Assembly: GCA_017399555.1 (NCBI GenBank) | Contig: JAFQBW010000039.1 | Location: 1-33,625 of the forward strand | DNA from: Methanocorpusculum sp. | GTDB taxonomy: Archaea; Halobacteriota; Methanomicrobia; Methanomicrobiales; Methanocorpusculaceae | Direction: 5' to 3' | Length of the DNA stretch: 33,625 nt | In this document: piece by piece, positions 8,280 to 9,864 of the stretch | How positions within the stretch are numbered: the stretch's first letter is position 1 | Layout of the letters: each line of letters starts with the position of its first letter | Position numbers and translations under genes: made by a program | Notes under the pieces: generated by a model | Told to the model about the DNA's origin: nothing | The model's input: the letters and a program-made list of their open reading frames with translations, nothing else | Databases searched by the model: none

Positions 8280-8380
8280 TGCTTGCTTATATATTGGTTC
8301 TCTTCTCTCATATATCCTCTCTGTCTTACTTGTGTTATCTCAGATTTTCCCGTGATGCGGTCCATTCCTTCTGCGATAGC

Positions 8381-8390
8381 TTTATAATAT
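8381..8390 (+). promoter_or_regulatory. TATA box of the cdrS-ftsZ unit
   Basis: TTTATAATAT is the best TATA-like sequence upstream of cdrS. Counting about 26 nt places transcription start near 8411, so the 11-bp-phased array at 8424-8484 would lie in the transcribed leader, just downstream of the start site. Confidence 0.55.
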
Positions 8391-8423
8391 CATAAGTACA
8401 ATTATGTTTTGTCCAAAACAGGA

Positions 8424-8484
8424 TGTCAGCTAAATGTCTGATGTGCGTCAGCCAAGTGTCAGACAAATGACTGACGCATGTCAG
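8424..8484 (+). promoter_or_regulatory. Six TGTCAG-like hexamers at exact 11-bp spacing
   Basis: Hexamers begin at 8424 (TGTCAG), 8435 (TGTCTG), 8446 (CGTCAG), 8457 (TGTCAG), 8468 (TGACTG) and 8479 (TGTCAG). Every interval is exactly 11 bp, about one helical turn, so all boxes face the same side of the DNA; the spacer bases vary. The last box ends 12 nt before the cdrS ATG. This is the form expected for an operator that loads a cooperative array of ribbon-helix-helix dimers. Autoregulation by CdrS is inference. Confidence 0.75.
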
Positions 8485-8496
8485 ATTGGAGATATC

Positions 8497-8688
8497 ATGG
8501 ACCGAATTACAATCCGTTTACCCCCGCAGCAGGTTGAAATGCTGGAGAGACTGGTAGAAATTGGTGAGTTCCCCTCAGTTTCCGAAGCAGTACGTTATGC
8601 CGTGCGCGACTTCTTATCCCAAAAGAGTGACCGGATTTTACGGGACAGCGACTCAATCTCTACCTTTGACATGGGAATCAACTGTTAA
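8497..8688 (+). CDS. cdrS: Ribbon-helix-helix regulator CdrS
   Basis: The 63-aa product is almost only a ribbon-helix-helix domain: a beta strand [18 protein letters not shown] followed by two helices [19 protein letters not shown]. It matches CdrS, the small cell-division regulator encoded next to ftsZ2 in haloarchaea and conserved beside ftsZ in other Euryarchaeota. An in-frame ATG at 8434 would add 21 residues encoded by the TGTCAG array; the start at 8497 is preferred because GGAG lies 8 nt upstream and the domain begins there. ftsZ follows after 18 nt. Its likely targets are its own promoter and ftsZ. Confidence 0.85.
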
Positions 8689-8706
8689 TTCAGGGGTGTA
8701 CAAAAA

Positions 8707-9864
8707 ATGCAGAGTATTATTAACGAAGCACTGAAAAACGCAGAACTCGAAAAGGGTATGCAGACTACCTCCATCGTTGACGATGAGGACATGCTCGGAC
8801 AGCCGAGAATTGTCATCGTCGGATGCGGTGGTGCTGGAAACAACACTATCAACCGTCTCCACAACATGAAGGTTGGCGGAGCAGAGACTATTGCTATCAA
8901 CACTGACAAGCAGCACCTGGATATGATTCAGGCAGACAAGCGTGTCTTAATTGGAAAATCCTTAACCCGCGGTCTTGGTGCCGGAGGATTCCCGGATGTC
9001 GGACGCCGTGCAGCCGAGATGGCCCGCCCTACCTTAGAGGAGCTTTTAAAGGATGCTGACCTCGTCTTCGTCACTGCAGGTATGGGAGGAGGAACCGGAA
9101 CCGGCTCTGCACCTGTTGTTGCACAGATTGCAAAGGAGCACGGAGCAATTGTTATCGCAATGGTTTCCTATCCGTTCCAGGTTGAGCGTGCAAGAATGCT
9201 CAAGGCAGAAGACGGTCTTGAGGCAATGCGCCAGGCAGCAGATTCTGTTATCGTCCTCGACAACAACAGACTCAAGAACTTTGTTCCAAACCTCCCGCTC
9301 GGACAGGCATTCTCCGTCATGGATCAGATTATCTCCGAGACTGTTAAGGGTATCTCTGAGACCATCACTGAGCCGTCCTTAATCAACATCGACTACGCAG
9401 ATGTCCGTGCAATTATGAGCAAGGGCGGTCTTGCAGTTATGCTCATTGGAGAGTCCAAGCAGCAGAACAAGGCTGAGTCTGTCATCCGCGACTGTCTCGC
9501 ACACCCGCTTCTCGACATCGATTTCAGAGGTGCAACCGGCGGTCTGATTCACATCACCGGCGGCAACGACTTAACTCTGCACGATGCAGAAGAGATTGCC
9601 CAGCAGCTCACCTATGAACTTGACCCGCACGCAGATGTTATCTGGGGCGCACGCGTCAGAAAGGACTTTGAAGGCAAGGTCTCTGTTATGGCTATCATGA
9701 CCGGTATCCACAGCCCTCAGATTATCGGCGGAAGCTCTGAGCCGCGCGTTCTTGGAAGATCCCAGCCGCAGGTCCAGTCCTATTCTTCTCCATCACCGGC
9801 CTCTCACGCAAATCCGGAACCGATCCGTACCAGCGGAAACAACGGATTTGACTGGATTGTCTAA
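8707..9864 (+). CDS. ftsZ: Cell-division GTPase FtsZ (FtsZ2-like)
   Basis: The tubulin homologue that assembles the division ring. The 385 aa show [15 protein letters not shown], the tubulin signature [13 protein letters not shown], the NTDKQHLD segment and the T7-loop region [20 protein letters not shown]. The N-terminal [13 protein letters not shown] and the block [26 protein letters not shown] resemble haloarchaeal FtsZ2 more than FtsZ1, which agrees with the cdrS neighbour. After a Ser/Pro-rich linker (about 345-375) the protein ends in GNNGFDWIV, a probable partner-binding tail. A strong AGGGGTG ribosome-binding site precedes the ATG. Confidence 0.95.

Follow-up and report, generated by a model that had tools for sequence, protein, structure and literature searches.

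The window, by which we mean the whole stretch of 33,625 nucleotides of Methanocorpusculum sp. DNA that was analysed, contains a cdrS-ftsZ operon whose leader carries a tandem array of six 11-bp units. The features of this locus are as follows.

8381..8389, + strand: predicted TATA box TTTATAATA of the cdrS-ftsZ2 promoter (sequence-based prediction)
8407..8423, + strand: block TTTTGTCCAAAACAGGA, spanning and following the predicted transcription start, between the TATA box and the array (read by eye)
8424..8434, + strand: array unit 1, TGTCAGCTAAA (sequence and genus comparison)
8435..8445, + strand: array unit 2, TGTCTGATGTG (sequence and genus comparison)
8446..8456, + strand: array unit 3, CGTCAGCCAAG (sequence and genus comparison)
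8457..8467, + strand: array unit 4, TGTCAGACAAA, containing the full palindrome TGTCAGACA (sequence and genus comparison)
8468..8478, + strand: array unit 5, TGACTGACGCA (sequence and genus comparison)
8479..8489, + strand: array unit 6, TGTCAGATTGG, which extends into the ribosome-binding sequence (sequence and genus comparison)
8488..8491, + strand: GGAG, likely ribosome-binding sequence of cdrS (sequence)
8497..8688, + strand: cdrS, encoding a 63-aa ribbon-helix-helix (RHH) protein (Pfam RHH_1, PF01402, E 1.6e-06)
8707..9864, + strand: ftsZ, FtsZ2 type (Pfam Tubulin and FtsZ_C; blastp)

Transcription in the window is predicted, from sequence alone, to start at ~8411. The array begins ~13 bp 3' of this point, and its end reaches the ribosome-binding sequence. 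A preliminary description of this DNA had placed the array between the predicted transcription start and the ATG, which agrees with the predicted TATA box at 8381-8389 and the cdrS ATG at 8497. It had also named the RHH protein CdrS as the product of the first gene downstream, and the RHH_1 match bears this out. The FtsZ encoded in the window is 59-65% identical by blastp to four haloarchaeal FtsZ2 proteins encoded beside cdrS, and 41-46% identical to six FtsZ1 proteins. Within TTTTGTCCAAAACAGGA, the letters TGTCC are kept, as judged by eye, in 23/23 genus leaders that extend that far (the L024 leader is shorter); in the window they sit 14 bp from unit 1 and are therefore out of phase with the array.

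The six boxes read TGTCAG at 8424, TGTCTG at 8435, CGTCAG at 8446, TGTCAG at 8457, TGACTG at 8468 and TGTCAG at 8479, and direct reading confirms all five successive 11-bp intervals that had been described. Their joint score against TGTCAG is 32/36. The next-best six-box scores in the window are 21 on the forward strand and 24 on the reverse strand, and 300 Markov-1 windows, scored in both reading directions, gave a mean best score of 20.8 and a maximum of 25. A template-free repeat search over periods 7-13 also returned 32 at 8424 for the window, versus at most 28 in 60 null windows. The six-box array with its 11-bp step is thereby confirmed as a real feature.

The composition of the repeat was counted over six units in each of 24 genus leaders (144 units). 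Positions 1-4 are T in 102, G in 141, T in 116 and C in 144 units, and positions 6-9 are G in 126, A in 112, C in 100 and A in 87. The true unit is a 9-bp palindrome, TGTCWGACA (TGTC-W-GACA), plus 2 bp, with the consensus TGTCWGACAAA. The TGTCAG hexamer of the preliminary description is part of this palindrome. The spacers between hexamers, which had been called variable, are not free, since half of each palindromic site falls in them across the 144 units.

The array is found throughout the genus. cdrS was found in 24 of 25 genus genomes, the exception being ~70% complete, and the best six-box register at an 11-bp step scores 25-33/36 in 24/24 genus cdrS leaders, the window's included. This score forces six units on every leader; a separate run finder detected six units in 21/24 leaders and five in 3/24. 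Further afield, CdrS relatives were matched in 117/120 genomes of the order and in 198/294 sampled genomes of the phylum, where weak distant matches may include proteins other than CdrS.

From a subset of the CdrS-matched genomes, which are related and not independent, we compared 108 non-haloarchaeal leaders: 24 from the genus, 8 from the sister genus, 64 from other families of the order and 12 from further out. Sites scoring at least 7/8 against TGTCNGACA number 3.0, 2.25, 2.89 and 2.42 per leader in these four groups, against backgrounds of 0.01-0.03 in shuffled sequence and of 0, 0.375, 0.109 and 0 in a stretch farther upstream. Pairs of good sites are separated by a multiple of 11 bp in 311/326 cases over the 108 leaders (85/85, 12/12, 189/203 and 25/26 by group), where ~1 in 11 would be expected; such regular spacing is also a property of RHH tandem operators. 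The off-phase pairs, 14/203 in the wider order and 1/26 further out, count against an operator reading. At least one in-phase pair occurs in 21/24, 8/8, 59/64 and 9/12 leaders, which leaves 3/24, 0/8, 5/64 and 3/12 with no in-phase pair at the 7/8 threshold. Eight haloarchaeal cdrS leaders scored likewise had 0/1 pairs in phase. The preliminary description had named a lack of the phased boxes in relatives as evidence against an operator; we find the boxes kept in 24/24 genus leaders and in phase in the great majority of pairs.

The best run consists of six units in 52/108 leaders and of one to nine units in the others. Before cdrS in a distant family of the phylum (leaders L119 and L120), a run of nine units extends over ~97 bp. 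In 87/108 leaders the array is preceded by a TATA match of at least 7/8, with a median of 39 bp from the TATA centre to the first unit, in a scan that is blind to any TATA less than 60 bp from the ATG. Words resembling a Shine-Dalgarno sequence lie at most 20 nt from the cdrS ATG in 89/108 leaders. The array is a deeply conserved, operator-like element that joins a known regulator family to a new arrangement of sites.

On the methanogen side, this arrangement is nearly confined to cdrS. The genome of the window contains the two-unit pattern, at up to 3 mismatches, in 4 places, two of them within the array, versus 2 in the control; the genome scan proposed in the preliminary description thus turned up no second array. 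Across the genus, a scan at up to 2 mismatches gave a match in 23/25 genomes, and all but four places are at cdrS. The four are G003:C18:7862, G010:C13:34536, G017:C163:9647 and G018:C217:65, the last of which is identical in its letters to the array and lies near a contig end. In 20 methanogen-side genomes, GTCWGAC-N4-GTCWGAC occurs in 41 places, 22 of them at cdrS; the 19 others, sorted by hand, compare with 18 for the reversed control. Among the pairs scanned in these 20 genomes, sites are above background at cdrS only, although single units may occur at other loci.

Other division genes were searched for sites of at least 7/8 in 10 methanogen-side genomes. None precedes the ftsZ1 candidates (0/10) or the cetZ candidates (0/10), these labels having been assigned by score order, and sepF has one upstream site in each of 2/10 genomes; the cdrS-ftsZ2 positive control was recovered in 9/10. 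In the genome of the window, a single 7/8 site lies 47 bp before the farthest possible sepF start (L336, on G000:C37), and it is absent from the one other genus member examined. Two genomes from a single family of the order also have a two-unit site, with one mismatch, ahead of a small conserved gene (position 1501 in L295 and L296).

Paired units are distributed differently in haloarchaea. We scanned eight haloarchaeal genomes of one family; the cdrS regions of three members of this family best match named Halobaculum and Halorubrum. The paired unit at 11 bp, with at most 1 mismatch, is found in 69 places versus 3 in the control. In 17 genomes of the phylum that lack a CdrS match, 6 places compare with 9 in the control, which is no excess. 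The pattern therefore occurs with CdrS and not without it, as a CdrS operator would. Fifty-five loci around haloarchaeal paired sites (L228-L282) were read, and one member of each gene group behind the sites was checked with Pfam (7 proteins). A paired site precedes ftsZ1 in 6/8 genomes; these six proteins are FtsZ1, being 77-92% identical to one another and 44-51% identical to the four FtsZ2 proteins encoded beside cdrS. The genes identified behind paired sites at some of the other loci are sepF (2), cetZ (1), hisB (1), dacZ (1) and genes for DUF7139 (3) and DUF7093 (4) proteins.

Several of these genes are published targets. In Haloferax volcanii, ChIP-seq placed CdrS at 18 sites, for which a symmetric motif is given, and ftsZ1, dacZ and hisB are among the targets, whereas sepF and cetZ do not appear in the ChIP table in the available part of that report (PMC8406309). 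dacZ was located in 12/12 haloarchaeal genomes, and is preceded by two clean units exactly 11 bp apart in 2/12, by one clean unit in 2/12 and by none in 8/12; the two clean pairs are GTCTGAC at -62 and -51, and GTCTGAC at -69 with GTCAGAC at -58. TGTCWGACA pairs are accordingly present at published CdrS targets in relatives of H. volcanii, a correspondence established at the level of gene identity. The genes identified, for which 7 proteins were passed through Pfam, did not include the further ChIP targets panA, psmB, cdc48d or threonine ammonia-lyase; this, and the small number of clean pairs at dacZ, speak against CdrS as the reader. We predict that the genes behind two-unit sites (ftsZ1, sepF, cetZ, dacZ, hisB and those for DUF7139 and DUF7093 proteins) form a CdrS regulon.

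Haloarchaeal cdrS leaders have a related but altered element. Within 200 bp upstream of cdrS in 80 named loci, the best 80 of 284 found (L134-L213), GTAAGAC-N4-GTCTTAC, with an 11-bp step, is found in 64/80, GTAAGAC-N5-GTCTTAC, with a 12-bp step, in 14/80, and neither in 2/80. The common form keeps the 11-bp step, and its outer half-sites differ from those of the TGTCWGACA array. Since the one place where a second RHH protein, CdrL, was reproducibly found on Halobacterium DNA lies upstream of cdrS-ftsZ2 (PMC7439475), the GTAAGAC/GTCTTAC pair may be a CdrL site.

Several features suggest that CdrS reads the methanogen-side array. As at RHH tandem operators, the adjoining gene encodes an RHH protein (PF01402, E 1.6e-06), and CdrS is the sole match at E<=0.001 in its own genome. 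An alignment of 22 CdrS proteins, haloarchaeal ones included, shows no variation at ribbon residues R3, T5 and R7. An AlphaFold2 model of CdrS has a mean pLDDT of 76.7 and helices at 10-21 and 28-51. Compared with the PDB, this model had no match at E<=0.001, the best being a ParD RHH domain (E 0.61); a sequence-profile comparison ranks antitoxins of CopG/Arc/MetJ type (E 5.7e-08) first among solved chains, followed by NikR. The preliminary description knew of no described CdrS operator of such a form. CdrS does have a published H. volcanii motif (PMC8406309), and a description of the array itself was not found in the titles and abstract openings of the open-licence literature searched, from which other literature may differ. 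CdrS is most likely the binder of the array, because its ribbon is invariant, paired units occur at genes that are ChIP targets, and there is no excess of pairs in genomes without CdrS. The suggestion of CdrS as binder had been made in the preliminary description, and is strengthened by the RHH_1 match, the co-occurrence of sites with CdrS and the haloarchaeal targets.

RHH proteins often control their own operon. We consider it probable that the array is the operator through which CdrS represses cdrS-ftsZ2, a putative autorepression. Each 11-bp unit would be a symmetric site for one CdrS dimer, contacted by its two-stranded ribbon. With the units recurring once per helical turn, the six dimers would line up along the same face of the DNA, and adjacent dimers could bind cooperatively. 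As the array begins just 3' of the promoter and runs into the ribosome-binding sequence, a filled array would block initiation or early elongation. CdrS would then limit both its own amount and the amount of FtsZ2 made from the same transcript, a negative autoregulation that responds steeply. Computation shows the array with its symmetry, phase, conservation, near-uniqueness and location relative to the predicted TATA box; that CdrS is the binder, that each unit takes one dimer, that binding is cooperative and that it represses are what we infer. The stoichiometry may also be one CdrS dimer per TGTC half-site. Overall, the preliminary interpretation holds in its conserved, phased, operator-like array and its likely binder, and not in its account of hexamers with variable spacers.

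Repression is preferred over activation mainly because of the position of the array. CdrS might instead bind the array and activate or tune its own operon, by positive autoregulation or as a concentration-dependent switch. Published haloarchaeal CdrS is chiefly an activator, of ftsZ2 among others: in Halobacterium it activates ftsZ2, while ftsZ1 is independent of it (PMC7439475). In H. volcanii, most of its sites fall 41-110 nt upstream of starts, where activators bind, and the cdrS operon itself is absent from the 18 ChIP sites as given in the available part of the report (PMC8406309). The activating role on ftsZ2, the independence of ftsZ1, the location of the H. volcanii sites and the missing operon all count against repression. 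On the methanogen side, however, each of the 87 leaders with a clear predicted TATA box has the array 3' of it, and the array ends at the ribosome-binding sequence. Repressors typically bind at such a position, and we judge activation unlikely.

We think it quite unlikely that a DNA-binding protein other than CdrS reads the array. CdrL, which binds upstream of cdrS-ftsZ2 in Halobacterium, offers a precedent, but it is reported, in the available part of the source, from Halobacteria only (PMC7439475). Moreover, in haloarchaea the paired unit goes together with CdrS targets, and it is at background level in the 17 genomes without a CdrS match, and the array adjoins the gene of an RHH protein.

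The repeats might also work in the mRNA leader, as a hairpin that acts in attenuation or translation control. The window leader does fold better than shuffles (-37.5 kcal/mol, z -3.64), each of the 15 non-redundant genus arrays is more stable than its dinucleotide shuffles (z -2.0 to -5.5), and the energy of the window array is below that of all but 3.7% of chimeras. Palindromic units, however, fold by themselves. Real arrays have a mean of -20.1 kcal/mol, versus -20.0 for chimeras of units from different genomes (15 arrays, 1000 chimeras, P 0.43), and the predicted stems vary from genome to genome. Rfam gave no match at the gathering threshold for 8280-8720. A structured RNA leader is thus disfavoured, the set of 15 arrays being no more stable than the repeat units alone would make it, and we regard this function as very improbable. 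That the array codes for an N-terminal extension of CdrS is scarcely credible and was rejected. In its favour, the window has an ATG at 8434 that would extend the cdrS frame to an 84-aa ORF, and in 25/108 leaders this frame is open from -84 to the ATG. Against it, an in-frame stop interrupts the stretch in 83/108 leaders, the 11-bp period shifts the reading frame with every unit, and GGAG is properly spaced from the ATG at 8497.

Little is settled about how archaea adjust the amounts of their division proteins, and the experimental CdrS papers that we found are haloarchaeal. A defined, conserved operator provides a handle on the control of FtsZ dose on the methanogen side. It also offers a sequence rule for haloarchaeal CdrS sites, namely two TGTCWGACA units 11 bp apart. 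We tentatively raise the possibility, to which we give somewhat less than even weight, that the phased leader array represents ancestral CdrS control, in which steep local autorepression fixed the FtsZ2 dose. Haloarchaea would then have dispersed two-unit sites to places upstream of other promoters (those of ftsZ1, sepF, cetZ and dacZ), making CdrS global, with control of cdrS passing to an added CdrL. If this is true, CdrS shifted from a one-operon homeostat to a global division regulator. The reach of this regulator seems to have changed between local and global, while the ribbon with which it reads DNA stayed the same.

The array can be compared with several known RHH systems. Arc subsites follow one another at 11 bp, and MetJ recognises 8-bp palindromes in tandem. 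RelB is likewise an RHH repressor on adjacent subsites, and its relO consists of four hexads (PMC2812701). The RelB, Arc and MetJ operators differ from the array in having fewer subsites or another spacing, are bacterial or phage elements, and are unlinked to division genes. Another comparable system is Omega (ParB)/parS of plasmid pSM19035, where 7-10 contiguous short sites each take one RHH dimer and the arrays overlap promoters of Omega/parS's own genes (PMC9499535). The Omega units are, however, 7 bp long and non-palindromic, and serve partition (PMC9499535), whereas the array described here has 11-bp palindromic units before a division operon.

The CdrL site of Halobacteria resembles the array in that an RHH protein controls the cdrS-ftsZ2 operon (PMC7439475) and, if the GTAAGAC/GTCTTAC pair is this site, in the 11-bp step, seen in 64/80 named loci (the best 80 of 284). 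Unlike the long array, this putative site in the haloarchaeal cdrS leader is one pair with altered outer half-sites. The H. volcanii CdrS regulon has the same regulator family and the same ribbon residues, and its published targets (PMC8406309) ftsZ1, dacZ and hisB carry, in relatives, two units 11 bp apart. It differs in its dispersed two-unit sites upstream of promoters, with its own operon outside the 18 ChIP sites in the available part of the report (PMC8406309). On the methanogen side, by contrast, mostly six units stand together in the cdrS leader, and sites elsewhere are at background level.
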